64,000 nt of DNA from Monosporascus cannonballus (taxonomy: Eukaryota; Ascomycota; Sordariomycetes; Xylariales), in assembly GCA_004154925.1 (NCBI GenBank), contig QJNS01000084.1:62001-126000 (forward strand), written 5' to 3'. The translations under genes and the position numbers were made by a program. Position 1 is the first letter of the stretch, and each line of letters opens with the position of its first letter. Positions 985 through 38,204 of the stretch are shown piece by piece. The notes under the pieces were generated by a model that searched no databases, was not told the DNA's origin, and worked only from the letters and a program-made list of their open reading frames with translations.

Positions 985-3900
985 TTCTTAAAAACGCCGA
1001 CTGGGACGTAATTATTTCCTGTAGTTTCGTTGTTACTAGTGAAAATTCTTTAACAAACGCTGAGCGTTTATAAGGTTTTTAGTAGGTTCTTAGATGTTCT
1101 CGGAATTTGAGTACTTTTTTCATTTAATAAGGTATTGAGCAAATTTATTTTTCTTTCCTATATCTATTTTTTTATTTTAGATATCGTATTATTTTTTATT
1201 TTTATATTATTTTATACTGTATATATCTTGATTGTATTTACAGTTAATTCCAATAAGCAAATACGAAAAATTGGGTAAAATTTAAGCTTTGGTAAAAGTT
1301 TTATTTAATCGCTATTTTCTGAAGGTTTCTTGGCGATTTTATATAGTCTAATATATGTAAAATCGTGTTTTTTACTAGGTCGTCTTGTTTAAATGTTTTT
1401 TGTAGCGAAATAAACTAGTTTCCCTTTTTTGAAAATTGATTTTTAACCGTTTTTGTTATAATGTTTATTTATTTAATTACGTACTCATTTTAATACTGTT
1501 CTTATTTTTGATATAATTGCTTTAGTTATTCCGTTATAAGGATTATTTCGACATTAAAAGGTTTATCTACGCGTTTTTATAAATATTCGATATACCCCTA
1601 AAATTTGCGTATGCTGAAATAATTTTAATACTTTCGTAATAATTAACAATATAAGCTAATTAATTAACAAATAATTTTTTTAATTTAATTAATTTCTTTA
1701 GAGTTAATATAATATTATAAATATGTTTTTAATCTCTGCTTTATCGATTGTATTTATTTTTCTATTTAAGGTTTAAATACGTTAAATAAGTTACGATTTA
1801 TATTAATTTATAATATAAGATTTTCCTAAAACTTTAAGATAAATATATTGTTTTTATTTAAAACAGTTTCGTGTAGTAATCTGTATATATTAAATATATT
1901 TCTAAAAAAATACATGTTATTTATTCAACGTTTATATTCTTATGAAGTAAGAAATAAAAGGATTTAGTAAATATGTCGATAATAACGACAATAGTATTTT
2001 AATATATTTTTATTACTAGATTTTCGAATAAATAAAATTTAATAATAACGGTTATAATAATCGAATTTTATAGTTGTTTTAAAACTAGTAATAGCTGTAA
2101 TTTTCTATAAGGCTTGTATTAGCGTATTTTAATTTTGTTGCAGAGATTATATCGTTGTTAAATTCTTTGAATTATTATTTTTATTTTAAGAAAGGAATAT
2201 ATATGTTAAAGTCGTTCTAGAGTTTTGTAAACTTTTAGGTATTTATATAACTAATGTTCATATATTATTTATATCAAATCTTCTTGATGTTTTTCAACAA
2301 TTTATATTTTATTTAATTTTTATATTTTGTGAAATTAGTATTATATTATTGAATATTTAAAGTCTATTAAAAGGTATCACTCGAATTGTTGTAATTTGTT
2401 GTACGCGTAAATATTTTTTATACTGATATTAAAAATTGTACGGCTAATTTTGATTAACTTTTTTAAACTTTAGTCGTTTATTAAGAGTATTAGTTTTGTC
2501 GTTTTCTGAACCTTTTTTGTAAATGATAACGAAATTAAAGTTCGCTAATTTTTTTACGTAACAAAGTTATCGTTCTATAAGTTCTTTAGTCGTAGTAAAA
2601 CCGGTAAAATTCTGATAATCCGTATAAATTTTAACTTGATACAAGTTTTCTTTTAAAAAGTGCTTGAATTCTCGAAATGCTATAATAGTGGCCATAACTC
2701 TTTTAGTTAGAATATTGTAATTAAGTTCGATTTTTTTAATTTGTACGAAAAGAATATAATAGGATGTAATTTGCTTTAATCGTCGCGTTATCCGATTATC
2801 GCGCTTAAAGCGCAATTCGAAATATCAGTTTTTAGCTTAACGAAGTAAGTTAAATTGTATATAATTAATATTAATTTGTTAGTAATTTTATTTTTGATCT
2901 TTTAGAACGTTCTTTCTGTTTCGGGCGTTTATCTGAAATCTTTCTTTTTTGGTAAGACTAATAAGAGGTATAGCTGTTTTGGTAAAGTTTCGAATAAACT
3001 CTTTATAGTAATTAGCGAAGGCAAGGAATATCTGTACCTTTTTAACTATTATTGACATCTGCATTTCTCTAATTCTAGCGATTTTCTTAGAGTTTATCGT
3101 AATATATCCTGAGATAATAATATATTCTAGATATTTCATTTTCTGCATATAGAATTGTGGTTTTTCTGCGTTAATTAACAGTTTGACATTTTATAAAGCT
3201 TAAAAAATTTTGTAAACGTATTTTACGTATGCTTTTTTTGTTTTCGAAAAAATGATGATGTCGTCGAGATTGTATACAACAAAGACATCGAGATATTTTC
3301 GCAGTACATAATTTACTATCTGTTAGAAAGTTGCTGGTACCTTTGCAAATCATATTGGCGTAATTAAATACTTAAATAATTTGTATTTCGTTTTGAATGT
3401 TATTTTTTATTTATATCTTTTTTTATTTAAATAATATTGTATTTATCTTTAAGGTTAAGTATTATAAATTATTAAACTGTATAGAATCGGTTCTTTATTT
3501 CCGTAAATAAGGATAACGGTATTCGATTCTTAATAGTAATATTATTAAGTTGTCGGTAATTAACTATAAGTAGTAGTTTTCCGTTCTTTTTAGACACGAA
3601 AAATATAGAATATTCTGTAGATGATTTCGAAGATCGAATGTATCTTTTCTATAACCGAATTTTCAGGTATTTTTTTAAATGTTCGCAATTTATTTTCGCT
3701 AAGATTGTAAATCGGGTAAAATTTCGTTTATAAGCCTTTTTTAGTGATTATTTAGTAATTCTATTTGTTATATTTTAGTAATTTCGTATTAAGCCTTTTT
3801 TTTTGAAAAGCTGTTTGTATCGGTAATATTGTGGTGGCATATTGATTAAATTTTCTAATTTTTGGAGTTATTGTTCCAAATCGGTGTTTAGTTGCTTTAA

Positions 3901-6336
3901 TTTTGCTTTGATAGTAGTTACGATACGTCGTATTTTTTGATGCCCATTTTCTTTTTTGTATCGTGTTTCGGTAGGTAGTAAGATTTTTGTCATATTCTTA
4001 TATTTGTCTTCGTCGCCATTTTCGATCGAATATTAAGATCTCCTATTCTTTAGAGACTGTTTGCTAATAAGGTGTAAAACGAACTTTATCTAGCCAGTTC
4101 TTTTATTAATTAAAGCTTTGTACTGGTATATTTATGGTTTTCTTAATATTATATTGTAATTCCTAAATAAAATAATATCGATATCACCTGTTTAATATCG
4201 CTCTTAGATAAAAATCTCGAGGTAATTAATTTTGTACGTAATTCTTTCGTTATTGTAAACGAATTCCTGATCTTCGACATTTATCGCTATATAAGATTTT
4301 AACTTGTATCTTTATAGCAGTTTAAGCTTATTAACAACGTTTAATATAATATAGTTTCCGTTTAAAGTTTCGCAGTTCATTATTACAGTATACTAATACG
4401 TTCCGATTCGTATATCTAAGATAATAAGATTATTAACGGCTTTTATTATCGCGTTTAAATCTTTTCTTAGAAGCTTTTTCTCATTTTTCGAGATTTTATT
4501 ATTCTACGGCTTTTTTATAAATAACTTTCGTGTTTTTAATTTTTCGTTTCCAATTTATCGAGCCTCGTATATATTTTTTAATATACCGCGTTAAATTGAT
4601 AAATTTGCTATTATTATTAACGTATTATGTCTTCGAATTATGTTAATTATTTTCAATTTTGCTTTAATCTTTTTAATAAATATATTGTTTTTTATAGTTT
4701 CGACCGTATTCTATTATACGTCGTATTAGTAAACGTTTTATAATTCACTTATAAATTAATCTATTTTTTTAATCATTTTGCTTTCCTTAAAGTCCGTAAG
4801 AAATACCAATTAAAAATAAAGATCTATATTAATCTTTTACCAATGTGTTTTAGCGTACATTAAATTAATTTTTTTCCAATTAATAATCGCATTATTTATA
4901 ATAATAAAAAAGGTGTTTTTACAGATACTATTTTTTGGAGTTAGATTTTTACCGTAACTAATTAATAAATATCGTTTTTCGAAATTATAAATCGAAAATA
5001 CCGCTATTAATATTTATCGTTCTTATTATCTTTTATTCGGTTTAGAAAATTCAATCGCTTATGATACATATGGTAATCGTTTTATAAATCTACCGTTTCC
5101 ATTTTTTATAATTAGGATACTCCCGTTATCGACAATATATGGCGTATATTCTACGGTATTGATCCGAGGTTTTAGAACAGACGTCTTTCGTCCATTTCTA
5201 ATGTTTTTTCAGCTGTATCTTAAAGGTATTCCGCTATCTTTTGAACGCTCTCTGGGCCAGTTTTTTCGCTTTTCGCATCTCTTTCCGAATTTCTTATCGA
5301 AATGGCCCGTTTTCGTACTGGGATCGAATTATATTAATAACCTTACCATCGTTCCTTTACTTATTCCTAAACTATTTTTCCGGTACAAATACTCAATTAT
5401 TCTGTCGTGGCTTTTTAAGTACTAAACATTTCACAGCGTTATATCTTATTTTGCTATAATTAAAGCACTAAATTTGGCTTTAATTCCTTTTCTGAGCTGT
5501 ATTCAAATCCATAAGTTCTAATGCTGTACTATAACATGTTAATAATATATCGCGCTTTTTCTCTAATTGGCCGAATAACCTCCGTATATTGGAATATATT
5601 ATTCATTTTTCTCTATACGTTATTTATACAGCCTGTTATTAATCTTAACAATTTCGATAATACACCGGTTTAAGGTTTTAGGTTTTAAAAGTTTAATAAT
5701 TTTGTTCTTAATGTTACCCTTTAATTTTTTATACAACATATTTATCAAATTATTTCTTTCGTCGTTAATTTATCTTATCTTAGCTATAAGGCTTTTAAAA
5801 CTAATAGCATCTTTCGAAACAGATTTCTTCTATTATAATTGCAAAATCTGCTATATTATCGTTCGTTTTTCGTCTAAGTTTTCAAAATTAGCCTTTAAAT
5901 TCTTCTTAAAATTTATATAATTAAAAAAATCTTAATAACTTTTTCTTAATCGGTCTTAATGTTTTTTAAATAATTTCTCATAACTGGCTTAAACTAATTC
6001 AAAGTATTTTCTATAAGAAAAGCTGTTATAGCAATATTTCGATTTGCAGGCTCGTCCAAATCTTGAAAACGGAAATATATTCGTACTTATATAAGGAAAC
6101 CTTAAACGCTTTTATTTCTATCGTAAAATTAAGGCTTTTTAGCCTATTACTTAGGTGCGATATTTCGAATTGGAATAACTGCCACCTATTTCGTGAATTA
6201 TTAAATTTGTTCTTTAAATTTCTTAATTCTAGCTTGGAGCTGCGTAACTGCAAAAAATGCTTAGAACTGGTCGACATGGTAATTAAAGAAATATTGCTCA
6301 AAATCTGACGGTATTACGAAATAAAAACTTACAACG
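985..6336 (-). mobile_element. GyA-1: RIP-mutated Ty3/gypsy element body, 3' end missing
   Basis: Base-by-base resemblance to GyA-2 runs from 985 (equivalent to about 16,850) to the LTR at 6,337, so this is a minus-strand copy lacking its 3' LTR, polypurine tract and most of the antisense frame. Minus-strand translations show the expected order: gag-like N-terminal frame (6,301-6,026), reverse transcriptase/RNase H linker (3,148-2,888, ending in the FRRFI-like block) and RNase H (2,815-2,567, with the YTDxxN and TTKEL-type motifs). The frame is broken by many TAA/TAG codons. Nothing here can be functional. Plus-strand open frames such as 5,159-5,425 are shadows. Confidence 0.85.
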
Positions 6337-6733
6337 TATAACGGCTAGGCGGTTTAACCAATTATTAAACCTAAGTTCTTCGGATTTATATTAGCAAAAA
6401 TATCATAAAAATTAAAATAATAAATACTATAACGTATTACGTTTCGTAATATCAAGAACGTTTTAAGTAACAATATATTATTGCAAACTAAAGCTATTTA
6501 AATTATAAAAACTATAAGCGTATATATTTTCGTCCTGGCTTAAAAAATTTTAAGCAGCTCAAACTCTTAAGCTCTTTAAGCCCTTTAAGTCCTCCTATTA
6601 GCTCAAGAGGCTTAAGGCGCTTGGCACCTTAAGACCTTTAAGCCAGTTATATGATTTCTTGGCTTGGGTCGGATTTAGACTTTCTTATAACTCCGATCGT
6701 TTGTAGAAAAGCTAAGACCGTTAGATCATAACA
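6337..6733 (-). repeat. GyA LTR (5' LTR of GyA-1), 397 bp
   Basis: The plus strand reads from a mutated TGTGACGGCT end (TATAACGGCT) to TCATAACA, the same termini as the 439-bp GyA-2 LTRs. The middle differs: instead of the GGATCC-rich 53-bp repeat it carries a short repetitive stretch built on CTTTAAGCCCTTTAAG-like units (about 6,550-6,660). It sits at the gag end of GyA-1 and adjoins GyB-1 at 6,734. Confidence 0.8.
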
Positions 6734-12099: not shown

Positions 12100-14338
12100 A
12101 TATCGCCGATATCTTTAAGTACGATATTATTTTGAGAATGCCGTTGTTTCAATTTAGCAATTTATATATTAATTAAAAAAGCCAGATATTGATATAAACG
12201 GACGAGATAAAGGCGATTTAAAAAAAACGGAAAGGTTTAATATGTTACAAAGGAAGAATAAATCCAAGATTAGACCTTTATTGTTCATTTAGAATATCGA
12301 AAATTTAAAACATTATTTAAAAATAAAGAAAATTATAAGTCGCTTTTTTACGATTAATAGAATTATCGAATATCTCCTAGAAAAGGATATTATTCAAAGC
12401 TTTATTGAATTTACTATATAAATTTATAAAGGCTTAAGGTTTTATAAAATAACATATGATTTAATTGAAAAAAAGAATATTTTTAAGTTTTTTAACTTTT
12501 TGTAGAATATTTTGTTTTTGTGGTCCTAAAGATAAATGATAATAGGCAAAAGATCGACGAAAACGAAAATCTTATTTACCAAAAGAAATCCATTATAAAT
12601 AGTTAAATAATATTGTTATTAAAAATGGATATCCTTTAACTCTTATAAATACATTAAAGAAAAACGTTAATAACGTTAAGTGATTTATTATATTCGATTT
12701 CCGAAATAGTTATTATCGTATTAAAATAGCCAAAGGAAAAAAATGAAAAACGGCATTTAGAATAATGTACGGATTTTACGAATATCGAATAATGGCTATA
12801 GGACTTATTAACGCCTCCGCTAGTTTTCAAAGTTTGGTTATGATTATTTTTCGATAACCTTTCGATAAATTCGTATTTTTCTACCTCGACAACATATTTA
12901 CTTATTTTAAAATTCTAGAGGAATATAAAAAGTATGTTGCTTAAATACTTAAATTTTTAAATAAGGCAAATATTCGAAGTAATCAAGTAAAAAGTATACG
13001 GTATATAGAGCAATTAAACTTTTTAGGATTTACCTTTATTTTCGGCGAAATTCAAATTTAATGTTTTAATTTAAAAATAATTAAGGATTAGCTTATTTGT
13101 AATAAGGCAACCGTTGAAAGTATTCGATAAGTCTTAGAATTTACGAGTTATATACGTAATTTAATTAAGAGATACGGAAATATAATGAAATTATTAACGA
13201 AACTTATTACTAAAAAGTACCTCAAAATTCAAAGTCCTAGAAAAGCTAAGAAAGCGTTTCGATTATTAAAAAAAGTAATTATTAAAAGATTTATTATAAG
13301 AATTCTTAATTTAAATAAGAAAAACGCCTAAAAATAGACGTCTTAATTTACGCCTTAGATGATATTCTAAAATAATAAAAAGATAATAATAAATAGTATT
13401 TTATAGCATATTACTTTAAGGCATTACGAAATAGACAACTTAAATATCCGATTTATAATAAAGAATTATTAGCAATCGTTAATGCTTTTAAGGAATAAGA
13501 ACTTTTCTTTAGCGAAACTAAAAAAAACTTTTCAATATTTATTTTAATCGTAAAAGCTTTACTCGATTTATAAAAGTACAAGAACTAAATAAACGACATA
13601 AAACTTAAATAATTTTCTTAATATAATTCAATTTTGAGATATATTTTATTGAAAGAACGGAGAATACTGAGGCAGATATGCTTAGTTGAAAAGGAATTTA
13701 CAATTTTAAAATCTCTAAAAGAAGTATAAAAATATTATAATATAATAAGGATAATACTGTATAATTATAAACGAATATTAAAAAAAATTAACTTTCGAAC
13801 TTTTAATACGGTTTCGAAATCTTTACGATATTAAGCAATAATAAAAGATTTAATAACTAAAAAGGTAATTAAAAGATTAATTATTTTATTATAGCAAAAT
13901 TTATATTCTAAAGAATTAAGAAAAATAATTCGTAAAAAGATTTTACAAAAACATATTATATAAACACTAAGGAATTTTCAAAATTATTAAAAGGCTATAA
14001 GAAAAATACGATTTTCTAGAATTATGCCGTATAATTAAAATAATTATTAAAAACTAAAAGATTTTTAATAAAGCTAAGACAATACGCTATAAGCCTTATA
14101 GATTACTATAACTTATTAATATTTTTAATAAAGCCTGGAATAATATAATTTGGAACTTTATTATTAACTTATTTCCACTTACAAACTTAGTCACTAAAAT
14201 CGAATATAACGATACCTGGATAATCGTTAATAAATTTATCAAATATAAGTACTTTTTAATTTTTTAAGAAAAGCATAACGGTAAAATAATTAGCCTATAC
14301 TTTTATTAGATATTATCTCGATAAATATGGAATACTAA
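12100..14338 (+). mobile_element. GyB-2 part 1: gypsy pol (RT, RNase H, integrase start), RIP-decayed
   Basis: Plus-strand translation from about 12,600 follows a gypsy reverse transcriptase: the LPLI block, the FDFRNxYYRI stretch, the WKTAFR block, the GLINASASF block and a catalytic box Tyr-Leu-Asp-Asn-Ile at about 12,882. RNase H-like and integrase-like sequence follows up to the solo LTR at 14,339. No complete gag precedes RT: only some 300-400 bp separate it from the GyB-1 LTR, so the copy is 5'-truncated. It continues at 14,716 and again after GyA-2 at 22,673. Confidence 0.8.
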
Positions 14339-14715
14339 TGTGACGGCTAGGAGGTTTAACCAACTATTAAACCTTAAGTCGACGGGTTTATGTTAGCAGG
14401 AGTATCGTGGGAATCTGAGCAATAGATACAGTAACGTATCACGTCTCGTAATACCAAGGGTGCCTTGGGTAACGATGTTGTATTGCAAGCTGAAGCTATC
14501 CAAACTATGGAAATAATGAGCGTATATATCCTTTCATAGATCCCGTTGGATCCCTTGGAACACTCCGGATCCATATACGGATAACTGCATGGATCCTGTT
14601 GGATCCCTTGGATCACTCCGGATCCATGTCACGTGATTTCGATCCACTTGGGTCCTGTTTCGGTCATCAAGTGACCGTTTCCGAGACCCTCCTTTGGTTG
14701 GGTCGTAACAACTAA
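14334..14715 (+). repeat. Solo GyA LTR (14,339-14,710) with ACTAA target duplication
   Basis: A 372-bp LTR starting TGTGACGGCTAGG and ending GGTCGTAACA interrupts the GyB-2 integrase. The five bases ACTAA occur on both sides (14,334-14,338 and 14,711-14,715), so this was a real integration later reduced to a solo LTR. It holds two copies of a 53-bp GGATCC-rich repeat (about 14,541-14,640), one fewer than the GyA-2 LTRs, and is less RIP-mutated than its host. Plus-strand reading corresponds to the antisense of GyA pol. Confidence 0.93.
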
Positions 14716-15803: not shown

Positions 15804-16242
15804 TGTGACGGCTAGGCGGTTTAACCAACTATTAAACCTTAGTCGTACGGGTTTATGTTAGCAGGAGTATCGTGGGACTTTGTAATAATAAAATAACTTA
15901 ATTACGTCTCTTAATATTAAAGGTGTAAAAACGTATTATAAACGATTGGTATTAATAAGTGTTACAAGCTAAAACTATTTGAATTACGGAAATAATAAGC
16001 GTATATATTCTTTTATGGACCCCGTTAAATCCCTTAGATTATTCCGGATCCATATACGGATAACTGCATAAATCCCGTTAGATCTCTTAAATTACTCCGG
16101 ATCTATATACGGATAACTATATAGATCCCGTTAGATCTTTTGGATTACTCCGGATTTATATTACGTGATTTCGACCCATTTAGGTCCTGTTTCGGTCACC
16201 AAATGACCATTTTTAAGACCTTTCTTTGGCTGAGTTATAACA
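15804..16242 (-). repeat. 3' LTR of GyA-2, 439 bp
   Basis: The plus strand begins TGTGACGGCTAGG and ends GAGTTATAACA. It contains three 53-bp repeat units (about 16,017-16,170) related to CATGGATCCCGTTGGATCC, and a 14-bp insertion relative to the solo LTR at 14,339; one extra 53-bp unit plus this 14 bp exactly accounts for the length difference of 67 bp. Confidence 0.93.
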
Positions 16243-16262
16243 CGATTTTCCTTTTTCCCAAA
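16243..16262 (-). other. Polypurine tract of GyA-2
   Basis: Read on the minus strand, the bases directly before the 3' LTR are GGGAAAAAGGAAAATCG, a purine run of the kind that primes plus-strand synthesis in LTR retrotransposons. A closely similar run (GGGAAAAAGAAAATCG) lies directly before the 3' LTR of GyA-3 at 38,189-38,204, which supports both the orientation and the function. Confidence 0.75.
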
Positions 16263-16309: not shown

Positions 16310-16924
16310 ATATGCGGCCGAATCACTAAGAACTGTAAACGTATTAACCAGAAAGAAAAGCGCGAAGCTTTAGCTTTTTTTGTTTTTAATTCTGGTTTTG
16401 GAATTATGCTTTATATACCTTGTTTTCGTGTTGGTAACTTTTGTATTATGTTAAATGGTATACCGCGTTATTAGTAATGCATCCTGAAAAAACGTTATTG
16501 CGATAATTCCGGTATTTCCTTTTCTTCCTTAAATAATATCAATAAAAAAATAAAACGTTTGCGGTTAGAAAAATTTTCCGCCCGGCAGAATTTTCGTAAT
16601 ACTTATTAAAAGTTATTAACCGTATTCCGTCGTTTGGATAAGGTGTTATTTCGTTTAAAGCGTTTTCGTACTTAGCAGGATTTTTTTCGCAAAAAGGGCG
16701 TGGAAATAATTAACTGAGGTTTTTAGTCCCTGGACGAACTGGAAAAGCAGGAAAAGGCCGATCGTCTGAAGGCGGAGTATGGACGTTTAGAAAACGAATT
16801 TCGTTCGGCATTTCCTGAATGGTTTTATTCCGTTGATCCTATCGTAAATGTGGATTGGAACGTAATTATCTTTGGTGGTTTCGTTATTGTTAGTGAAAAT
16901 TTTTCAATAGGCGTTAGGTGTTAA
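16310..16924 (+). pseudogene. Antisense frame in GyA-2: Zn2Cys6-type cluster plus coiled coil, about 204 codons
   Basis: On the strand opposite to pol, between the integrase end and the 3' LTR, one frame can be followed without a frameshift from 16,310 to the TAA at 16,922. The start codon is not certain; position 16,310 is ATA, one transition from ATG. Residues 35, 38, 45, 54, 57 and 64 have the exact Zn2Cys6 spacing C-x2-C-x6-C-x8-C-x2-C-x6-C; residues 35 and 54 are Tyr (TAT), one RIP change from Cys (TGT). A basic, Leu-spaced helical region follows, then SLDELEKQEKADRLKAEYG and an aromatic/acidic tail. The few internal TAG/TGA/TAA codons are mostly explained by Gln, Arg or Trp codons. The combination resembles a small fungal DNA-binding protein, but no function is shown. 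It is broken here. Confidence 0.72.
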
Positions 16925-19900
16925 TAAGATTTTTGGCAGGTTTCCAGATATTTTCGGAATTTGGGTGCTTTTTTCATTTGATTAGGTACTAGGTAAATCC
17001 GTTTTGTTTCCGCATGTCGAGAATTTTTTCCATTTTATATGCTTATTCGTTCTTTATTTCCACATTATTTTGTGCCGTATGCATTTTAATTATATCCGTT
17101 ATTAACTTAAGTAAAAAAACGTAAAAGATTTAATAAAGTTTAATTTTTGATATAAGTTCTAATTAGTAATTAATTTTTTAAAATTTTCTTGGTAATATTA
17201 TATAGACCGATATATTTGAAATCGAGTTTTTGCTGGGTTATTTCGTTTAAATATTTTTTATAATAAGGAAAACCATTTTTCCTTTTTCGAAGGTTAGTTC
17301 TTTTAACCTTTTCCGGTTATAATACTTATTTATTTGATTCCGTACGAATTCCAATTCTGTTTTTATTTTTTAATACAGTTATCGTAATTGTTTTAACGTA
17401 AGGATTATTTTAATATTAATTGAATTATTATCACATATTGTTTTATAAATTTCTGAAATAAAAATAAAAATTGGGCTTATAGGTGTTATTTTGATATTTT
17501 CGTAATAACTAGTATTATAAGCTAATTATACGATCGGTAACTTTTTAACCTAATTATTTTATTCGTAATTGATATAATATCGTAAGTAAATTTTTGAAAT
17601 TTAATTTATTTATTTTATTTATTTATTTATTTAAGATTTAAATTTGCTCGATAACTTATAATTTAGGCCGATTTATGCCATAAAGTTTTGCTAAAACTTA
17701 GATGTAAAAATTAATCCTTTATTTAATATAATTTCTATTCGTGATCCGTATATGCTAAAGATGTATTTGAAAAAAAAATATATTAGTTATTCGGCGTTTG
17801 TATTCTTATAATATGGTAAAAAATAGGAGAATTTCGTAAATCGATCGATAATTACGGAAATGCTATTATAATGTATTCCCGTAACTGGATTTTTTAAGGT
17901 AAGGAGTTTGGTAATAAAGTTAAATATAACTAAATACTATAGTCGCTTTGCGATTGGTAATAATTGTAATTTTTCGTATGGCTTATGTTATTAAGTTTTT
18001 GCTTTGGCGCAAACATCGTATTGTCGTATGAGCTTTTATATTGTTAATTTTATTCTAAAAAAAAGAATATATATGTTAAAGTCGTTTTAAAATTTTATAA
18101 ATCCCTGGATATCCATATAATAGATATTCGTATATTTTTCGTGCCAAATCCTTCTGGTATTTGTTTAGAATTTATATCTTATTCGTTTTTTAGTTTTTTA
18201 AAAATTGTCGTTATACTGCTAGATTTTCTAACATATATCGAAAAGTACTGCCCGAATTGTCGTAATCCGTTACGGTCGTAAATATCCTTTTATAATAGTA
18301 TTAAAAATTATATAGTTAATTTTGACCAATTTTGTTTCAAAATTTGGTCACCTGCTTAAAATATTTTTTCTGCCGTTTTTTAAGCCCTTTTTGTGAATAA
18401 TAACGGAGTTAAAATTCGCCAATCCTTTTGCGTCTCAAAGTTATTATTTTGTAAATTTTCCGGTCGTAATAAATTAGGTAAAGTTTTAATAATCCGTATA
18501 AACCTTTACCTGGTACAAATTTCCTTTTAGGAAGTGCCTAAATTTCCGAAATGCCATAATAATAGCCATAAATTCTTTATTTAAAATACCGTAATTAAAT
18601 TCGGCTTTTTTTAACTTATACGAAAAAAATACAATAAGGTATAATTTGTTTTAATTATTTTGTTATCGGATTATTACGCTTAATACGTAATTCGAAATAT
18701 CGGTTTTTAGTTTAATAAGGCGGTTTGGATTGTATATAATTAGTTCTGGTTTGTTAATAATCGTATTTTTAACTTTCTGAAATGTTTTTTCTGTATCTAG
18801 CGTTTATTTAATTTTTTTTTTCGTAAAACTCGTTAAGAGTATAATTATTTTGCTAAATTTTCGAATAAATTTCCTGTAATAGTTAGCGAATTTAAGGAAT
18901 GCCTATACCTTTTTAATTTTTATTGGCGTTAATTATTTTATAATTATAGCGATTTTTTTTGGATTTATCTTAATATATCCTGGGGTAATAATATGTCCCA
19001 GATATTTTACCTCTTATATATAGAATTAATTTTTTTCCGTATTAATAAAAAACTTTGCGTTTTGTAAAGCTTGAAAAGTTTTATAAACGTATCCGGTATA
19101 TGTTTTTTCCTTTTTTTAAAAAAATAAAAATATCGGCGAGATAGCAAATAACGAAAATATCGAGATATTTTCGTAATACGTAATTAATTATTTGCTGGAA
19201 GATTACTGGTACGTTCGTAAGTCTTATTAATATAATCAAATATTTAAATAATCCCTATTTCGTCTTAAAAGTTATTTTTTATTCGTATCTTTTTTTAATC
19301 CTAATAAGGTTATATTTATTTTTAAAATCGAATACTATCAATTATTGAATTTTATAAAATCGGCTTTTTATTTCCGTAATTAAAAATAATAATATTCGAT
19401 TTTTAATCATAATATCGTTTAATTGTCGATAGTTAATTATAAGTTATAATTTTTTATTTTTTATTTTTCGAAAAATATAAGGTATTTTGCTGGTAATTTT
19501 AAAAGTTAAATCTATTTTTTTCGTAACCGATTTTCCAAGTATTTTTTAAGAATGCATAACTCGTTTTTATTAAAGTTATAAATAGGGTAAAACTTCGTCG
19601 AAAATCCTTTTTTAAAAATTATTTTATAATCTTATTCGCTATATTCTGGTAATTTCGTATTAAGTTCTTTTTTAAAAAAACTGTTTATATATATAGTATA
19701 ATAATAATATATTAATTAAATTTTCTAATTTTTGGGGCTATTATTCTTATTTTTTTAAATCGTTATTTAATTACTTTAATTTCGCTTTAATAATAATAAT
19801 AATAATATGTTATATTTCTTTTAATACCCGTTTTTTTATATTTTATTCCTTTAGGTAATAAAGTGTGTATCGTATTCTTATGCCTATATTCGTTGCCATT

Positions 19901-22228
19901 ATTAATTAAATATCAAGATTTTAATTTTTTTTATCTATTAATAAGGTATAAAACGAACCTTACCTAACTAATGTTTTTATTAATCAAAATTCCGTATTAA
20001 CATATCCATAATAATCCTAAGACTGTATTATAATTTTCCAATAAAATGATATCGAAATTAATTATTTGGTATTATTTTTAATAAATATTTCGAAATAAGT
20101 AATTTCGCGTATAATTTTTCTATTATCGTAAGCAAATTCCTAACCTTTGGTATTCGTCGTTATATAAGGTTTTAACTTATATTTTCATGGTAATTTAAAC
20201 TTATTCACCATATTTAATATCATATAATTTCCGCCTAAAGTTCTATAATCTATTATTGCAGTATACCAGTACGTTCTAATTCGTATTTTTAAAGTAATAA
20301 AATTATTAACGTTTTTTACTGTCGCATTTAAAGCTTTTTTTAGGAATTCCATTTAATTCCTTTAGGTTTCGTTATTTTATGCCTTTTTTGTAAGTAATTT
20401 TTTTTAATTTTTATTCGAATTTGTCGAATTTTGCTTATATTTCTTCGTTTAACGCATTAAGCTGCTATATTTATTATTATTGCCGGCGTATTATTTTTTC
20501 GAGTTGTATTAATTACTTTTAATTTTTTTACAATTCTTTTTCTTATCGAATAAATTGTTTTTTTATATTTGGAATTATATCTTATTATACGTTATCTTAA
20601 TTATTGTTTTAAAGATATCCTATAAATTAACGTATTTCTTTTTTAATAATTTCTTTTTTTAGAAATCCGTAATAAATACTAGCTGAAAATAAAGATTTGT
20701 AATAATTTTCTAATAATATTTTTTTACCGTACGTGAAATTAATTGTTTTTCCGTTTAATAATTGTATTATCCATAATAAAAAAAAGGGTTTTTTTTATAA
20801 ATATTATTCTTTTTCGGGCCGGCTTTTTTTTTCGGCTAGTTACTGGATATTTCCTGGTGTTATAGTTCGAAATTGTCGATATTATTATTTATTGTTTTTG
20901 TTATTTCCGGTTCGGTTTGGAAAATCAAATCTTTTATAATATATACAGGTAATTTGTTCGTAAATATATGGTTTTTATTTTTTGTAATTAGGATATTCTC
21001 GTCGTCGATAATATATAGCGTACATTTTGCCATATCGATTAAGGGTTCCGGGACAGATTTTTTCCGTCCAATTCTGGTATTTGCGTAATTATCCTTATAA
21101 CGCTTTTTGTTATATTCGCGATATTTGTTAAATTCGCTTTCTGGTTTTTTGCATTTTCCGTCAAATTTCTTATCGTAATAGTTCTTATTGGACCTTTTGT
21201 TATAAATCTAATATATATTTGGTTTGGATTTTGTTAATAATTTTGCTATCGTTTTCTTAATTATTTCTGGATTATTCCTCCTGTACAGGTATCCAATTAT
21301 TTTATCATGGCTTTTTGAGTTTTCTGTATTTATAGGCCTTGTATTTTATTTTGCCGTAATTAAAGCATTTAATTTGGTTTTAATTTTTTCAGTGGGTAAC
21401 GTCGAGTTCTATCGGTCCTGGCGCCGTTCCGTAAAAAATAAAAGGTACGTTTCGTTTCTTCCCCTGGTTGGATTTGTTATATCCCGAATATAAGGTATAT
21501 TATCTTTTTTTTCTGATCGTTTTTCAAATTGTTAATTATTAATCTTAATTGTTTTTATAATATATCGGTTTAGGGCAATTAATCGTTTTATCTGAATCAT
21601 TTTATTTTTTATATCTTTTTTAACTTTTTATAAAATATATTAATAAAGGTATTAATTTCGTTATTTTTTCTTTAGCCTTAGCCGTAAAGTTTTTAAAATT
21701 TACGAAGTATTTAAATACCGATCCTTTTAATTAAAATTATAAGAATTATAAAACCGTAAATTATTTTTTATCTGAATTGCCAAAATTATCGCGTATTTTA
21801 TTTTCGAAATTAATATAAAGTAAAAAAATTTTATTAACAAAATTTTCTTTATTTAACTTTTTTATTTTTAAAAAATATTTTATAATAAGTTTAAATTAAT
21901 TCACCATATTTTCCGTTAGGCATATTTTTATTATTAAAACCTAATCCGCTAGATTATTAAGGTTTAGGAAACGAAAGTAAATTCGTACTTAAGTTAAAAA
22001 GGTTTAAGGGTTATTTTTTTTATCGTAAAGCTCCGGCTTTTCAGGCTTTATGCGGGCGAAAAAGGCTTAGGCAGATAGTATAGCCTTAATTTGTCGGATT
22101 TTTTTCTTTAGTTTTCGAATTTGAACCTCAAGCTGCTAAATAAGAGTTTTCGAAGCGTTGGTCGATATTTTAACAGTATTAAATATTGTTCAGAGTTTGA
22201 CGGTATTATTAAACAAAAGCTTATAACG

Positions 22229-22667
22229 TATAACGACTAAACGGTTTAATTAATTATTAAATCTTAGTTATACGGGTTTATATTAATAGAAATATCGGAA
22301 GACTTTATAATAATGGAATAACTGAATTACGTTTTTTATTACCAAGGGTGCAAAAACGTATTATAAACGATTAATATTAATAAGTATTATAAACTGAAAT
22401 TATTTGAATTACGGAAATAATAAACGTATATATTTTTTCATGGATTCCGTTAAATCTCTTGGATTATTCCGAATTTATATACAGATAACTGCATGGATCT
22501 CGTTAAATCCCTTGGATCATTCCGGATCCATATACGGATAATTACATGGATCCCGTTAGATCCTTTGGATTACTCCGGATCCATACCACGTGATTTCGAC
22601 CCACTTAGGTCCTGTTTCGGTCACCAAATGACCGTTTCTGGGACCCTTCCTTGGCTGGGTCATAACA
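22229..22667 (-). repeat. 5' LTR of GyA-2, 439 bp
   Basis: Same length and repeat layout as 15,804-16,242, with the leading TGTGACGGCT mutated to TATAACGACT. The right end, TCATAACA, is followed by the second ACGAA of the target duplication. The right third (22,540-22,667) is nearly free of RIP changes. Confidence 0.92.
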
Positions 22668-24790: not shown

Positions 24791-25834
24791 ATACGTTGTT
24801 GCGATATTACAAGGCTTTGAAATATGTAGATAACTATCAATTTGTGGGTATTTTGGCTATGCGTTGCTAGGGCTATGCATTAGGTGGGGTCCGAGGTTAG
24901 CTACGCCCACTGAAGGGCTTGTCAGAAAAGCCTAGCACCAGACCATTCCAAGCGCTAAAGAACGGCGAAAACTTTAATAGCTGGGCCACTTATACCAAAA
25001 CCAGTATGCCGAAGGCCACGGCGCGGTACTTCACATGGATCATTTTATTCGGCTTCCCACTCAGTACTAAGTAAGTACTTAGTATGCCGAACATTGCTCC
25101 ACTATGGAATCAACTCCCGCATTGGATCCTGGCATGTCCCAAATAGGAAGGTAACACAAGCTCACCATGCGGCCCGTACCTCTGGGCCCGAATGATCCAT
25201 GGGTATTGGCCCGTCTCCTAGACCCTTGCTAATTTGTATGGTCCGTACAGGACCCCTGCCGATGCCTGAAGTCCTAGTAATCCCCTGGAAACCCTGAGTC
25301 TCGACCTTGCCCTTATCGTCGACCTCATCGTTGTTGACCTTATCGCCAACCCATCGTCGACCTAGCTATCCGTCGACGACCCCGCTAGCCGATGATCAGG
25401 TCGATAGCTAGTCAGGTTGATGGTTAGCCAGGTTACTAAAGGATTTTAAAGCTTTTAGGGAATATTGGGGGACGCCATCGTACTAGATGCCCGTCGACCT
25501 TATCTTTGACCCGAAAAAAAGCAGGGGAGCGCAGGAGGCTAGCGACCACTACCCCCCCAATCCGGGCCCTTATTTGGTTCTTGGATTTCAGGCGTTAAAA
25601 TGATGGCATATATTATACTTGCCGCGACGAGCGGTAGCCTCGCCTAAATTTGCCCGCCCCGTATTTTCGATATTATTTGTCGTAATTATAAAATAAGGTG
25701 TCATAGAGGTGTACTCTATCCTAAGACGTTCCGCCGAGTAGAGACAGGGGGAAAGTAGTTTTCTTAATAGATAAACCTAGCTAACTGATGTTATGGCATG
25801 AATGCGTTAACACCCTCTGATGAACCCCGGTTTC

Positions 25835-25835
<1 letters not shown>
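24791..25835. other. Transition zone without genes; GTCGAC-rich stretch
   Basis: Composition changes from AT-rich to balanced. I see no coding frame. Between about 25,300 and 25,440 the sequence is rich in GTCGACC/GGTCGA words and holds an imperfect inverted repeat (GACCTAGCTATC near 25,363 against GATAGCTAGTC near 25,408). The stretch directly before the A tract (25,680-25,835) could be the 3' end of a polyadenylated retroelement, but no LINE protein is recognisable. Confidence 0.4.

Positions 25836-25880
<45 letters not shown>
25836..25880 (+). repeat. Run of 45 A residues
   Basis: An uninterrupted A45 tract lies between unrelated unique-looking sequences. It could be the tail of a LINE/SINE-type insertion or processed copy, or a polymerase/assembly-length artefact. 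I could not find a clear target-site duplication. Confidence 0.9.
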
Positions 25881-25881
<1 letters not shown>

Positions 25882-25993
25882 CCTCTTCTGCATACTCCTG
25901 CAGTTAACAAGTGCTGATGGCCTAGTGTGTGTACTTATCTCTTTTGCCAGACCCTCTCAAAACATGCTCCATGCCAGACCGGGCAGTTAAATT

Positions 25994-27776
25994 TCAACTC
26001 CCCGACGAGAAGAGAGGTTGCAATCGAGAACTGTCAAGATCAGTCGCGAGGATGTGGAGGCTGTGTTGAGCAGGGTGACGTTGAGAAATCAAATCTGCGA
26101 TGCATGTCAGTGTCCACCGCCTACATGCTTTCTGGCAAGGCAACATGCCTCCCAAGTATGTTGTCTCGGCGGATAAACTGCCACGAACGGTATTGGAAAT
26201 GAGATCTGCGGGGGAGTTCCCCACAATCGACGACGCAAGGCACTTAAAGTGCTCCAGGTGACGGTTGCTGCACAGGCCGTTGACCAGCACCATGAAATCA
26301 AGGTGATATTCGCTCAAGATAAATCTCCAGAAGAGGCGGAGAGCACGGTGTTTCAACACTCCTACAGCTGGTCGTTGTGTTAGGAAATTATTACAACGCA
26401 GAGTGACATATCCCGCTCACCTTCCTCATCAACCCCGGGCTTCTCGCATTGCTCCACTTGCTCCCAGAAGACTCGGGCAAAGGACTGTCTGGCGGACTGG
26501 ATTTGAAGTGCTTCGGCGCCGTATTGATCTAAAAGTGCCAATGCCGCTGAGACGGACTGCGAGATCAAGGCCCAACTCCCCTTGACCCTCTCAATTTGCC
26601 CCTTCGCTTTGGCGGCACTGTCCGTTAATGAGTCAGGAGGGTCTTGGATAAAAGCCATTAAGTTAGCGTATCTCATGCGCGCCCAGGCTGGGCACTCCTG
26701 CCGCTTGTTGAAGATAGGCAACTCCTTTTCCAGCTGGCCTTCCAAGTCCGACTGCGGGTGCCGCCAACGCTTGCCAAACCTGACACCTTCATCGATGCCG
26801 GCGTTACACGGCACCCCGAGCGATAAGGTGAAGAACTCCATGGGAGCGGCAATGACCCATTCTATCGCACACGATCGCGGCTCAGGCTTGTTGCGATCAT
26901 CCATCTCCATAGGCCATTCAGGCCCTACCAGAAGAGTGTGGAAAGGAAGTTCTAGGTCAAGATTGTCGAAAATGCCAGTTCGGTACAGTTCCATGCAAAA
27001 GAGCTGGAATTCACGATATTCTTGAGCAAATGTACCACCGTTGAATAGCGTTGCAATCGACTCGTCATCCGCTGCGTAGAAGACTTTTAGCGAATAGTAG
27101 ATAGATATAATCGTCGAAGACTTACAGACATCCTCAATCGTTTCATACCAAACACTGTCGATAGCACTAAACAGCTCTTGCCGGGCCCTCTCTGCTCCGT
27201 GTTAACTCAGGGAAAGTTGGTCGAACATTCCATCAGCTGTGATCATACCTTTGGTCATGGTTACGCCATACATTCTGATGAAATCTTGCGTTCCCTAAGC
27301 GCATTGTTAGCTCTCTATGTGCCCATCCAAAACAGTTTTGAGTTCGCGTTGTACCAAAGGCTGATGAACCCCCGACGGGCGGGGCGTCCCGACCACCCAA
27401 ATCATTCTCGTTATGTTGAGGAGCACATCAGTCCGCGGCCCGCCGTCAACATTAAGGGCGGCTTCGCAGATGTTCACAAAAGTGGCCCGTAAAACTTGAT
27501 GCTTCTCAAACTGAGGATCGTAAGCGACTGCAGATATTCACTGGTAAGTCGGTATCTCCGTAGGCGGCTAGGGCTTGGAGGGGGAAACCGGGAGGCGAAA
27601 TTAAACTTACGTGGGAGCCAAGTGATCTTGTCGTAAGCCTCATTGATTTCCGCTTGCGATAGCTCCCCGTTTGGCTTAAAGCTCCTCAATTCGAATAGGG
27701 CCTTCAGCGCTGTAGTTGCCGCCCGGTAAAGGTGCGCAGTTCGAATTGCCAAGACTTCAGCCTCTGCAGAGTCCAT
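25994..27776 (-). CDS. Five-exon gene of unknown function, 507 aa (5' end uncertain)
   Basis: Exons on the minus strand are 27,776-27,611, 27,527-27,355, 27,294-27,249, 27,191-26,421 and 26,361-25,994. They are separated by introns of 83, 60, 57 and 59 nt, each with GT...AG ends (GTAAGT, GTACAA, GTATGA, GTGAGC donors) and CTAAC- or TTAAC-like branch points. Exon lengths add to 1,524 nt, exactly 508 codons including the stop, and every in-frame stop in the unspliced sequence falls inside an intron. The chosen ATG (27,776, context TTCAAAATGG) is the first that fits; further exons may lie upstream. The product is mixed alpha-type, acidic in the middle, with no signal peptide or membrane segment. 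I recognise no domain. The gene shows no RIP damage although it sits between two repeat blocks. Confidence 0.72.
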
Positions 27777-28475
27777 TTTGAAGCGTATACTACCAAGTAT
27801 GATAGAATACGACAGATTAAATCAACTAGCTTGTTGAAGATAACGACCCGGGAGCGTTGGCAACGGATAGAGATCTGAGGTGTAAAGTCCAAGCTCGAAA
27901 CCTCAGAAGTGCGTCCATCGAACCGCCCTTTATAGATATAGTATGCGTTGGAGAATTCGTGAAACGCAATCATCAACTTATCCATGGCGCATGAAGTGAA
28001 TCATAGGTATAGCTTGTAAACAAGTATTTGTAAGGGTATGCGATGAACCGACATACCAACCCCCCGGGTCAACACAAACTTGACGGTTTACTGGTGCAAA
28101 TTTGAATTCTGAAGTCGTGCAAGCATTGACACGTTTGATTATCTGGGTTACCTTGTTCTGGTGCATTGCCCGAGGTTAATACCTGGCCCTGCGGGATCGG
28201 ATAGGCACTACGCGACATTCCCTTATGCGAATGATGCAAACTGTCGAGAACAGCTCTTTGTTGCTTATCCAGCTGGTTGTGCGCAGAGTCGCTCGAAGAA
28301 GAGCGGTTGGTGTCCTCCACTGTTTCTTCTGTCCATAGTAAGCCTAAAGGCGTTGGGTGTTCCCTTTCGATTCAGTGGTTGTTCAGGGTCTCTAGCCGAG
28401 ATTCGGACCATGAGTTCTACTCCTCCCTCAGCATACCTTTCCATGTGACAGCGAAGAAGTGTGAACAAGTTCTGG
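27777..28475 (-). other. Possible upstream exons of the same gene, cut by the copia LTR
   Basis: Minus-strand frames with coding-like composition continue up to the copia LTR. One chain reads VEDTNRSSSSDSAHNQLDKQ from about 28,320, then can be spliced (GTAACC...TTCAG, about 28,175-28,130) into EFKFAPVNRQVCVDPGGW. Another open frame starts at 27,985 (MDKLMIAFHEFSNAYY). I could not join these to the 27,776 ATG in one frame. Either they are 5' exons of the unknown gene or remnants of a second, truncated gene whose upstream part was removed where the copia element begins at 28,476. Confidence 0.4.
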
Positions 28476-28681
28476 TGTCAGACCTAGTAAAGCCAGTCAG
28501 CACTAGCAGAAATTACTTCCTGTACCCCTAGTACCTTTTTCTCCCAGCTCCACCTGTATTTACGTGTATAAAAGGAGGGTTCGCTACCTTCACTTTCTAG
28601 CTAGGACCTTCTAAAAAAAAGGGCAACCTGTTAATACACTTTTTTTCAGTTATATGCTTCTATATGTGATATAAGGCCTCA
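28476..28681 (+). repeat. 5' LTR of the copia element, 206 bp
   Basis: Begins TGTCAGACCTAG and ends GGCCTCA; it aligns over its full 206 bp with 44,844-45,049. A TATA box (TATAAAA, 28,567-28,573) lies 92 bases into the LTR, as expected of an RNA polymerase II promoter there. Most differences from the 3' copy are G-to-A or C-to-T, so the pair carries light RIP. Confidence 0.93.
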
Positions 28682-28683
28682 CA

Positions 28684-28694
28684 GTTATGAGCCC
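28684..28694 (+). promoter_or_regulatory. Copia primer-binding site matching the initiator-tRNA(Met) anticodon arm
   Basis: Two bases after the LTR the sequence GTTATGAGCCC is complementary to GGGCUCAUAAC, the anticodon stem-loop of eukaryotic initiator tRNA(Met). Use of an internal, half-tRNA primer rather than the tRNA 3' end is known for Drosophila copia and yeast Ty5. The match beyond these 11 bases is weaker. Confidence 0.7.
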
Positions 28695-31868: not shown

Positions 31869-32245
31869 TGTTACGATCTAACACGCTCCGGCCTCAGAAA
31901 ACGGTCAACAAGGATAACACGAACCACCCCTCGGGTCACGTAACGGGTGCTTAACAAAGATCTGCGGAGTACGAATAATTAGCACTGAATAATTACTTAA
32001 CAAGATTTTGCTTAATAAAGATAAATAAAGATAAATAGTACTTCCAAACACAAATATAATACGCTTATGATTTCAATAATTTAGATAATTTTATTTTATA
32101 ATAATAATTTATTATTTAAAGAACTTTTAATAATACGAAATATAATATATTATTATATTTATTATTCAGATTTTTACGATATTTTTGCTAATATAAACCC
32201 GTTGACTTAAGATTTAATAATTAGTTAAATTGCTTAGCCGTTATA
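31869..32245 (+). repeat. GyA-type LTR at the 5' side of GyA-3, 377 bp
   Basis: Starts TGTTACGATCTAACA and ends GCTTAGCCGTTATA, the GyA terminal sequences in plus orientation. Its middle (about 31,900-32,080) differs from both the GGATCC type and the 35-bp type found in the 3' LTR of the same element. Its left flank is CTAGC. Confidence 0.8.
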
Positions 32246-35200: not shown

Positions 35201-38200
35201 ATGGAAAATAGTTTTCAGAATAAAATACGGATTATTTAAATATTTGGTCATATTAATAGGATTTATAAACGTATTAATAACTTTTTAACGGATAATAAAT
35301 TATATGCTATAAAAATACTTCGATATTTTCGTCGTTTGCTATCTTAACGATATTTTCATCTTTTTAAAGATAAAAAAAATATACGTAAAATATATTTATA
35401 AAGTTTTTTAAGTTTTATAAAACGCAAAGTTACTTGTTAACGCAAAAAAGAATTAATTCCATATATAAAAAGTAAAATATCTAAAACATATTATCACCTT
35501 AAAACATATTAGAATAAATCCCAAAAAAATTATTGCAATTACAAAATAACAAACGCCAATAATAATTAAAAAGGTATAGGCATTCCTTAAATTCGCTAAT
35601 TATTATAAGAAGTTTATTCGAAACTTTAGCAAAATAATTATACCCTTAACAAATTTTACGAAAAAAAAAGAATTTAAATAAATGCCAGATACGAAAAAAG
35701 TATTTTAAGTTATTAAGGATACGATTATTAGCGAGCCAATATTAATTATATACGATTTAAACTGTTTCGTTAAATTAAAAACTAATATTTCGGATTACGC
35801 ATTAAACGTAATAATCGGACAACGAAATAATTAAGGTAAATTGCACCTTATTACATTCTTTTCGTACAAATTAAAAGAAACCAAACTTAATTACGGTATT
35901 CCAAATAAAAAGTTTATGGCCATTATTATAGCATTTCGGGAATTTAGGTATTTTCTAAAAAGAAATTTGCACTAAGTTAAGGTTTATATAAATTATTAAA
36001 ATCTTACCCGATTTATTACGACCAAAAAGCTTATAAAATAATAATTAAAATATGCAGAAAAATTGGCGAACTTTGACTTCGTTATTATTTACAAAAAAAA
36101 ATTAGAAAACGGCAAAACAAATATTTTAAGCAAACGACCAGACCTCGAAAAGAAATTGGTTAAAATTAGCCATACAATTTTTGATACTATTATAAAAAAA
36201 TATTTACGCTTACGACAAATTGCGACGATTTGGGTAATACCTAGCGATATACATCAAAAAATCCAATAATATAATAATAATTTCCTAGCAAACCAAAAAA
36301 CGGACAAAATATAAGTTCCAGAAAAATACCAGAAAAATTTAATACGAAAAATATACGAACATTAATTATATGGACATTTAGAGATTTATAAAACCCTAAA
36401 AAAACTTTAACGCATATATTTCTTTTCTAAAATAAAATTAATAGTACAGAAAATTATACGGCAATACGATATTTGCGCCAAAGTAAAGGTTCGACGACAT
36501 AAACCATACGGAAAATTACAATTATTACCAATTACAAAACGACCATAATATTTAATTATATTCGACTGTATTATTAAGCTTCCTATATCAAAAATTCCAG
36601 TTACGGAAATATATTACGACAGCATTTTCGTAATAATCGACCGATTTACGAAATTTTCTTATTTCTTATTATATTATAAGGACATAAATACCGAACAACT
36701 GGTATACATTTTCTTTAAACACATTTTTAACATATACGGATTACTAATAAAAATTATATCAAATAAAGGATTAACATTTGTATTTAAGTTTTGGCAAGGC
36801 CTTATGGCATAAATCGGCTTAAATTATAAATTATTTAACGCGTTTAAACCTTAAATAAATAAATAAATAAAACAAATAAATTAAATTTTAAAAACTTATT
36901 TACGATATTATATTAATTATGAACAAAATAATTAGGTTGAAAAATTAATAATTATATAATTAATTTATAATACTAGTTATTACAAAAATATTAAAATAAT
37001 ATTTGCGAATACAAATTTTGGTTTTATTTCAGAAATTTACAAAAAAATACGCAACGACGGTCCAATTAATATTAAAGCAATCTTTACGTTAAAACAATTA
37101 CGATAACTGTATTAAAAAAATAAAGATAAAATTAGAATTCGTACGAAATCAAATAAATAATATTATAACCAAAAAAGGTTAAAGAAACTAATTTTCGAAA
37201 AAGGGGAGATAATTTTCTTTGCCACAAAAAACATTTAAACAAAACGACCTAGCAAAAAACTTAATTTTAAATATATCGGCCTATATAAAATCGCCAAGAA
37301 AATCTCAGAAAATAATTACTAATTAGAACTTTTACCAAAAGTTAAATTCCATTCAATTTTTCATATTTCCTTATTTAAGTTAACAGCAAATATAATCAAA
37401 GTACATATGGCATAAAACGATATGGAAGTAAAAGACGAACAGGCATATAAAATAAAGAAAATCCTTGATATGCGAAAATAAAATGGACTTATTTAGTATC
37501 TAATTAAATAGAAAAAATACCTAAATTCCGAAAATACCTGAGAACCCGCCAAAAATCTTATTAGCGCTTAGCGCCTATTAAAAAATTTTTACTAATAACG
37601 GCAGAACTACCCGAAATAATGGCATTTTAATTTACGAGATCTACGGAGGAAAACCTTTAATCCACCGCATTTTAATTAATAATGTCCACCCTTTTTAAGG
37701 CCTAAACCTCGATTACGGATTCCGATTTTAATTACGTAAAGTCGTTAAAATTATTTAAGGATTAAAAGGTACGATTAATAAATTTTATATCTTAAAATTA
37801 ATAATATTAACGCTAACGACGTATGCGAAAAAAACGTACAAAAATTTCGGACAAAGATTTTTCGGCCGTTAACTTTTTTTCTTTTAATTTTTTCGATTTT
37901 GCGATATGGCGATTAATTATGGAAATAAGGATTCCTGTTCCGTTATACGAACGATCTTGACGGACATATTCCTTATAACGAAAAACCCCATTTATTATTT
38001 GGCAATTAAGTTGCCGAACAAAACAAAAAGAACAAAATATTACGTTAAAACCTTCGAATTTAATTAAATTAGCTAAAGCAAATCCTTATTCGGATTTGCG
38101 AAAACGACGTTTGGACATACTAAAAAACATATTAAAAGTATGTAAAAAAAACTTACCAAGAAAAAAGAAATCTTAGGGACAAGATTTTGGGAAAAAGAAA

Positions 38201-38204
38201 ATCG
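32246..38204 (+). mobile_element. GyA-3: Ty3/gypsy body in plus orientation, RIP-mutated
   Basis: The plus strand shows, in order: gag-like sequence (to about 33,900); reverse transcriptase at about 35,020-35,560, recognisable by DYRQLND, LPLI, the WKxxFR block and a catalytic box Tyr-Leu-Asn-Asp (about 35,338); RNase H to about 36,110; integrase at about 36,290-37,250 with YGHLEIYKTLKKL and VIIDRFTKFSYF blocks; and a chromodomain-like tail at about 37,440-37,560 with IKKIL and SENT(W). Gln and Trp codons have become stops and Asp has become Asn in the catalytic box. It ends with a polypurine tract (38,189-38,204). Together with GyA-4 it splits the copia element. Confidence 0.85.
37561..38118 (-). 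pseudogene. Antisense frame in GyA-3: Zn2Cys6-type cluster plus coiled coil, 186 codons
   Basis: Minus strand, starting at the ATG at 38,118 (MSKRRFRKSE) and followed without frameshift to the TAA at 37,561. Residues 29, 32, 39, 48, 51 and 58 have the spacing C-x2-C-x6-C-x8-C-x2-C-x6-C of Gal4-type zinc clusters. The first three are Cys; the last three are Tyr (TAT), each one RIP transition from TGT. Between the cysteines lie Arg/Lys/Gln residues as in DNA-binding clusters. A Lys/Glu/Leu-rich helical region follows (residues about 70-110). Nearly all internal stops are TAA or TAG where CAA or CAG would fit. It lies between the integrase chromodomain and the 3' LTR, antisense to pol, exactly as in GyA-2, although the two proteins differ strongly in sequence. 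Confidence 0.75.

Follow-up and report, generated by a model that had tools for sequence, protein, structure and literature searches.

A probable antisense gene for a Zn2Cys6-like protein in Ty3/Gypsy elements of Monosporascus cannonballus and its covariation with the adjoining half of the long terminal repeat

Introduction

Does a fungal retroelement carry, on the strand opposite to pol, a gene for a DNA-binding-like protein, and on what would such a protein act? The question is raised by a 64,000-nucleotide stretch of Monosporascus cannonballus DNA (contig QJNS01000084.1, positions 62,001-126,000, from an assembly of 88.8 Mb in 618 contigs), hereafter the window, in which a Ty3/Gypsy element with long terminal repeats (LTRs) contains a stop-interrupted plus-strand frame with cysteine and tyrosine codons at the spacing of Gal4. 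An earlier note, made from the letters of this DNA alone, had proposed that the frame represents an antisense accessory gene for a Zn2Cys6-like, coiled-coil protein. Our analysis supports this proposal: the frame is very probably an antisense accessory gene of the element. What appears new, against the papers searched, is that the gene exists in several versions on one element backbone, and that the LTR half adjoining it changes along with the gene.

Passages of PMC7264820 present antisense genes of LTR elements as described for years without known function. In fungal elements of this kind such genes have been known since 2011 through brtn, the antisense gene of Botrytis Boty-like Ty3/Gypsy elements (Zhao et al. 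2011, Virology 417:248, as cited in passages of PMC8365987, PMC7264820, PMC4227169 and PMC5987419). The earlier note had known of no description of such a gene; brtn corrects it on this point, as do database entries in which some relatives of the frame were already labelled Zn(2)-C6 fungal-type.

Results

We read the frame in the window copy and in 29 other copies of the same type, type A, found among 40 scored matches. Its features are:

16310..16927, plus strand: antisense accessory frame of type A, about 205 codons and a stop, interrupted by stops in the window copy
16412..16501, plus strand: six positions (residues 35-64) with the spacing C-x2-C-x6-C-x8-C-x2-C-x6-C; Y, C, C, Y, C, C in the window copy
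16520..16790 (approximate), plus strand: predicted long coiled-coil helix, then an LDEL helix, placed by alignment to the model of the protein P0001

As the earlier note had claimed, the frame runs from 16310 on the plus strand, opposite to pol, and its residues 35, 38, 45, 54, 57 and 64 are Y, C, C, Y, C and C, with TAT at 35 and 54. The window copy is not open: besides six internal stops it has one more at codon 205, and its codon 1 reads ATA. Of the 30 type A copies, 21 begin with ATG and 9 with ATA; CAA stands at codon 205 in 2 of them and TAA in the other 28, and 28 have TAA at codon 206. On these states we set the gene's extent at 16310-16927. The six motif columns are shared between cysteine and tyrosine codons almost throughout: TGY 10 and TAY 20 at column 35; TGT 11, TAY 18 and CGT 1 at 38; TGY 24, TAT 5 and GGT 1 at 45; TGT 5, TAY 24 and AAT 1 at 54; TGY 10 and TAY 20 at 57; and TGY 7, TAY 22 and TTT 1 at 64. 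In a codon alignment of 222 columns and 42 copies (the 30 of type A and 12 of a second version), in which columns with at least 35 codons were tested, six columns were TGY or TAY in at least 90% of copies, all of them the Gal4-spaced motif columns. Furthermore, a motif of at least four cysteines, the rest tyrosine, at this spacing occurred once when the window was read in all six frames, and in none of 30 windows simulated by a Markov model.

These counts bear on whether frame and motif could both be due to chance. Near-fixed stops number 4 in the antisense frame, no fewer than in the best of the other five (range 4 to 7), which would suit a chance frame, and codons that are precursors for repeat-induced point mutation (RIP) occur at majority-stop columns in all six frames. 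We rejected stop counts as proof of coding, since they do not separate the antisense frame from the others. However, the six TGY/TAY columns are exactly those of the motif, the simulated windows lack it, and relatives keep the cysteine pattern (see below); we therefore rejected a chance motif, and consider a chance origin of frame and motif together barely conceivable.

The frame lies within an element with LTRs at about 15.80-16.25 and 22.22-22.67 kb (mutual identity 83%), one of several related LTR elements in the window:

22224..22667, minus strand: 5' LTR, 83% identical to the 3' LTR
19084..19254, minus strand: reverse transcriptase piece of pol (RVT_1 E 0.00093, below the Pfam cut-off)
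18489..18650, minus strand: ribonuclease H (RNase H) piece of pol (RT_RNaseH E 4.2e-12, above the Pfam cut-off)
16866..16868, minus strand: probable pol stop codon, placed by reading on in frame from the RNase H piece
16015..16247, minus strand: inner half of the 3' LTR, adjoining the antisense gene and varying with its type; from the orientation of pol, probably the U3 side
16014..16161, no strand: tandem array, 53-bp unit x 2.8, starting where the LTR half common to all types ends
15804..16014, minus strand: outer half of the 3' LTR, probably the R-U5 side, common to types A to G

Reverse transcriptase and RNase H of gypsy type and the LTR pair identify it as a Ty3/Gypsy element. Because the RNase H and reverse transcriptase pieces are on the minus strand, the left LTR is the 3' LTR, and the plus-strand frame lies antisense between pol and the 3' LTR. 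Pol, with its stop at 16866, probably overlaps the antisense frame tail to tail by about 60 bp, which would account for the end of the frame being common to the types. A Pfam search of the window pieces 17790-17936 and 17933-18043 gave no match, and at the pol end of the window family a chromodomain-like pattern was seen by eye only.

This arrangement recurs across the genome. Among the best 150 of 1291 first-look candidates scored with P0001, stops were present in all 150; of the best 150 of 1302 scored with the protein P0002, five had no stop, four of these covering at most about half of the query. The fifth (C132:112202-112606, in locus L053, G000:C132:111900-112950) covers most of the P0002 query and adjoins an open RNase H frame, with tyrosine at its first two cysteine positions, so an uninterrupted antisense copy exists. 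On the strand opposite the antisense frame of this locus, a chromodomain (Chromo E 3e-17) faces the frame's 3' end; the element at this locus matched the window element in 0 of 6 segments. When the best 150 P0001 frames were compared with the best 150 RNase H matches, 25 pairs lay within 8 kb of each other; in 21 the RNase H was on the opposite strand, 1.5-1.8 kb past the 3' end of the frame, and in the other 4 it was 4.8-6.6 kb away, in two on the same strand.

We found relatives of the frame beyond this genome with a profile built from six natural copies. It matched three proteins, with E values of 1e-25, 4e-20 (Apiospora rasikravindrae) and 4.5e-11, all carrying the six patterned cysteines, one with looser spacing. 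A search seeded with these three yielded 66 proteins and a further search 69 new ones, only the roughly 8000 candidates with most words in common being scored in either. The named proteins of the first set come mostly from Sordariomycetes, plus Sclerotinia (SS1G_00408 and others). Spacing was exact in 45 of the 66 and loose (exact included) in 57; of the nine with neither, judged by eye, the head is wholly or partly missing in seven, one carries an insertion and one no longer has the last cysteine. The new proteins include 13 with exact and 46 with loose spacing, giving 58 and 103 of the pooled 135. In an alignment of 57 of the first 66, nine short or headless rows being omitted, five cysteine columns are invariant and the sixth is conserved in at least 90%. 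Relatives thus occur in many ascomycetes; occurrence in other fungi refers to the named relatives, and antisense position outside M. cannonballus comes from the Boty literature only. Absence of frame or cysteines from relatives, which the earlier note had named as the sign of a chance pattern, was looked for in part, and proteins from other sources keep both. The name BRTN is on none of the relatives among the matches listed, and 600 pattern matches in viral contigs yielded no confirmed relative. One metagenomic relative, P0116, has tyrosine at all six cysteine places (by eye), as RIP of TGY codons would give.

The spread of these relatives also speaks to two other readings of the frame. Zn2Cys6 proteins are abundant in fungi, and one element might recently have captured a host zinc-cluster gene; Morchella crassipes, for example, has 99 such proteins according to passages of PMC7014384. 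The many antisense loci (best 150 of 1291), the many genera and the fixed distance to RNase H instead favour an old element gene, and recent capture appears highly improbable. Alternatively, the antisense RNA rather than a protein might matter, through double-stranded RNA control of the element: passages of PMC10648671 report Ty3 antisense transcripts in Blumeria, and those of PMC7264820 discuss an RNA role for plant antisense open reading frames (ORFs). Conservation of six cysteines at the protein level between fungal genera is, however, not expected from an RNA role alone, and we hold this reading to be very improbable.

The protein is predicted to have a zinc-cluster-like head followed by a helix of 59 to 70 residues. 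Zn_clus (PF00172) was the Pfam family most often matched, by 27 of 57 members at E of 1 or less (best E 0.00017); P0001 and P0002 score 8.3 and 9.3 bits, the gathering score being 21. Because these scores fall short of it, the predicted protein is described as Zn2Cys6-like and not as a PF00172 member. For one modelled relative, 26 of 27 PDB matches were Zn2Cys6 domains, none individually significant, and Foldseek returned two unrelated weak matches for the full-length P0001 model. The PDB folds closest to the models are the domains of Gal4, Put3, Hap1, Ppr1, Leu3 and Pho7, with which the protein shares the cysteine spacing and, as predicted, would share two short helices, linker and coiled coil; it differs from them in being element-encoded, in falling mostly below the Pfam cut-off and in carrying more net charge in the second cysteine loop than in the first (means of 2.6 and 1.3 over 58 relatives).

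The window itself contains two versions of the gene, the second in an inverted element at 32043-38618 whose pol is 79% identical to that of the first over 5.3 kb:

37558..38130 (start approximate), minus strand: second antisense frame, type C, lying within the inverted element (about 32.04-38.62 kb); spacing as in the first, with C, C, C, Y, Y, Y

Clustering at one cut-off gave seven gene types (10 and 5 at two other cut-offs). Measured against the window element, the outer LTR half was matched in all nine non-A loci with LTR data, at 73-80% identity, and the inner half was fully matched in none of them (two match 86-87 bp at 67-68%); in 28 of 29 type A loci the inner half is matched over 128-234 bp. 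Non-A loci likewise show either nothing or partial, weaker matches across the leader and the greater part of the gene, identity returning in pol and in the final ~100 bp of the gene. In 35 loci drawn from the top matches of P0001 and of a later genome search (A 8 of 30, B 3, C 2, D 4, E 1, F 16 and G 1), similarity from the outer LTR to the gene start (U3 plus leader) averaged 0.39 within and 0.16 between gene types, with a shuffle null of 0.058, and followed gene type with a Mantel r of 0.69 (0 of 2000 permutations). The backbone showed no clear type signal, since transversion-only differences were alike within and between types: means of 0.057 within A and 0.065 from A to others in the outer LTR (52 loci), and of 0.045 and 0.034 at the pol end (35 pieces), in a comparison from which four A loci had been omitted beforehand and pieces below 85% coverage dropped, and to which no significance test was applied. 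One further locus, L060 (type H), was left out of the LTR comparison because none of its LTR segments matched the window element; it represents a separate LTR lineage in this genome, whose antisense gene is a version of its own with 58% identity to P0003, a protein from elsewhere.

Tandem arrays in the inner LTR half also differ between types: units of about 52 bp in 7 of 8 type A loci, 35 bp in both type C loci, and 10 bp in 3 of 16 F, 1 of 1 G and 1 of 4 D loci. The window array begins at 16014, the end of the LTR half common to the types. This position bears on a reading in which the gene is the same and its protein serves other steps of the cycle, such as nuclear import, the choice of target sites or the binding of the integration complex to chromatin, U3 covarying only as a neighbour in the exchanged block. 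Passages of PMC7264820 describe plant antisense products such as Grande GENE23 as nuclear and propose roles in retrotransposition, and in Tnt1 U3 alone is a fast-evolving module (passages of PMC1838419), so variation of U3 does not require a matched protein. That the variable block enters the LTR up to the start of the type-specific arrays is, on the other hand, expected if U3 is the target and coincidental otherwise. We regard action elsewhere in the cycle as unlikely, though it deserves real weight.

When types and relatives were placed in one tree (75 rows), type B fell beside Monosporascus P0012 (100/96), with P0001 joining next (100/99); type C fell with P0037 (98/92) and type H with P0003 (100/92). 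Types A, D, E and F came out as a single clade (100/97), a grouping that base composition may bias. Locus L059 carries a very divergent antisense gene (type G, on a long branch) on the common backbone. The deep divergence of the versions, with B, C and H grouping with proteins from other sources and not with type A, could mean that host genes or host silencing are the target of the protein and that it diversifies in an arms race with the host, and heavy RIP-like decay of the AT-rich part of the window points the same way. No host target came to light, though no search was aimed at one, and deep divergence would also fit matching of the protein to U3; a host target seems improbable to us.

Two parts of the window are AT-rich, one reaching from its first position to about 25 kb and the other covering about 29 to 45 kb. 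In 1-23000, CpA, TpG and CpG stand at 0.53, 0.61 and 2.21 of expectation, a skew of the kind that RIP leaves. A GC-normal island at 25000-28500, with frames such as 26380-27201 (minus strand), largely lacks the RIP-like signal. A third related element (1076-6528) matches the antisense region over about 80 bp at the frame end only (992-1073, 72%), and another LTR copy, of the type found in the window element, lies at 14334-14710 (78-80% in two pieces, parts of both halves), with no complete element traced alongside. A direct repeat at 28476-28685 and 44844-45053 is 91% identical and less diverged than the other listed repeats.

Discussion

The explanation that we favour, with confidence evenly balanced, is that the frame is a RIP-damaged, long-lived Ty3/Gypsy accessory gene, antisense between pol and the 3' LTR, which would code for a regulator of the element's own U3. 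Zn2Cys6 proteins such as Gal4, Put3, Ppr1 and Hap1 bind DNA as coiled-coil dimers, and the head, linker and helix of the predicted protein fit this dimer plan. The protein would dimerise via its coiled coil and bind DNA like Gal4, Put3 or Hap1, its main target being the U3 of its own element, through which it would set element transcription, as copy-number control or self-activation. Own U3 is the likeliest target because the promoter half of the LTR varies with the protein, in some types with iterated repeats; the linked LTR half thus suggests action on the element's own LTR, and from sequence we infer a DNA-binding regulator, encoded by the element and matched to its U3. Taken by itself, the step from protein to own U3 is tentative, falling somewhat short of an even balance. 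Protein and U3 would stay matched because they would travel as one cassette, which a template switch in pol, together with strand transfer in R, may move between elements. Strand transfer in R takes place during reverse transcription, and chimeras jointed inside the LTR are the outcome expected of it.

Several observations weigh against this explanation. First, U3 adjoins the gene, so linkage alone is no proof of function. U3 similarity reaches 0.25-0.29 in nine between-type pairs and just 0.13-0.15 in five within-F pairs, and with the whole 1.8-kb query BLAST bridges the variable block at 64-66% identity in five loci and at 59-61% in three type B loci; the edges of the block (about 16012 and 16882) are directly visible in L059 only. 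Arrays are absent or rare in B (0/3), E (0/1), F (3/16) and D (1/4). CGG/CCG in the window U3 number 12 against 7.9 expected (standard deviation 3.1), which is not convincing, and we rejected CGG enrichment. As to the protein, among relatives with scores seen only P0056 passes the Zn_clus gathering score (22.0, on half of the profile), none of 6 copies searched matched Zn_clus, and no fold match reached an E of 0.001 or better. Finally, fixed transversions between the two aligned versions number 48, 28 and 52 at codon positions 1, 2 and 3 (p 0.017), a moderate signal; within type A, transversion-polymorphic columns (14, 8 and 21) give a weak one.

Among known systems, brtn is alike in being an extra antisense gene of a fungal Ty3/Gypsy element. 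Passages of PMC7264820 count it with the genes located between pol and the 3' LTR and list it for Sclerotinia also, where relatives of the window frame are likewise found. A Monilinia transcript resembles both Pol and BRTN. The comparison with brtn is one of descriptions, and those in these passages name neither a zinc cluster nor U3-linked versions. The plant aORF-3R genes (Grande gene23, RIRE2, Retand, PvRetro13), also compared by description, likewise lie antisense between pol and the 3' LTR, and the Grande protein is nuclear (PMC7264820, in the passages available); there no Zn2Cys6 pattern is mentioned, 'zinc' occurring 0 times in that text. In the Tnt1 superfamily the RNase H region is conserved and U3 is the module that varies, and passages of PMC1838419 describe no protein gene as changing with U3. 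The additional ORFs of bdelloid rotifer LTR elements differ in being enzyme-like, env-like or of other ORF3 types, zinc cluster and U3 linkage going unmentioned in the passages concerned. A zinc cluster or U3-linked cassette joined to a fungal antisense retroelement gene was not found in the literature searched, which comprised titles, abstract openings and passages, with long result lists covered in part and subscription papers largely outside.

A further analogy is to the immunity regions of lambdoid phages, in which a DNA-binding regulator and its sites are exchanged together, replaced as one cassette on a common backbone; it is an analogy only. Under our favoured explanation both repression and activation are possible, and in its boldest form the protein would repress in trans, with escape by cassette exchange. 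A eukaryotic retroelement would then have swappable self-recognition cassettes, each an antisense zinc-cluster regulator and the U3 sites bound by it, exchanged together, so that resident copies would control same-type newcomers only, as in temperate-phage immunity; we consider this doubtful.

The linked U3 and the Zn2Cys6-like head lead, for one large group of fungi within a long-described class of antisense genes, to a concrete and testable hypothesis, namely that the gene regulates its element's own promoter. If true, fungal retroelements would possess matched regulator-promoter modules that recombine as units, which would bear on how elements escape control and how their families diversify.
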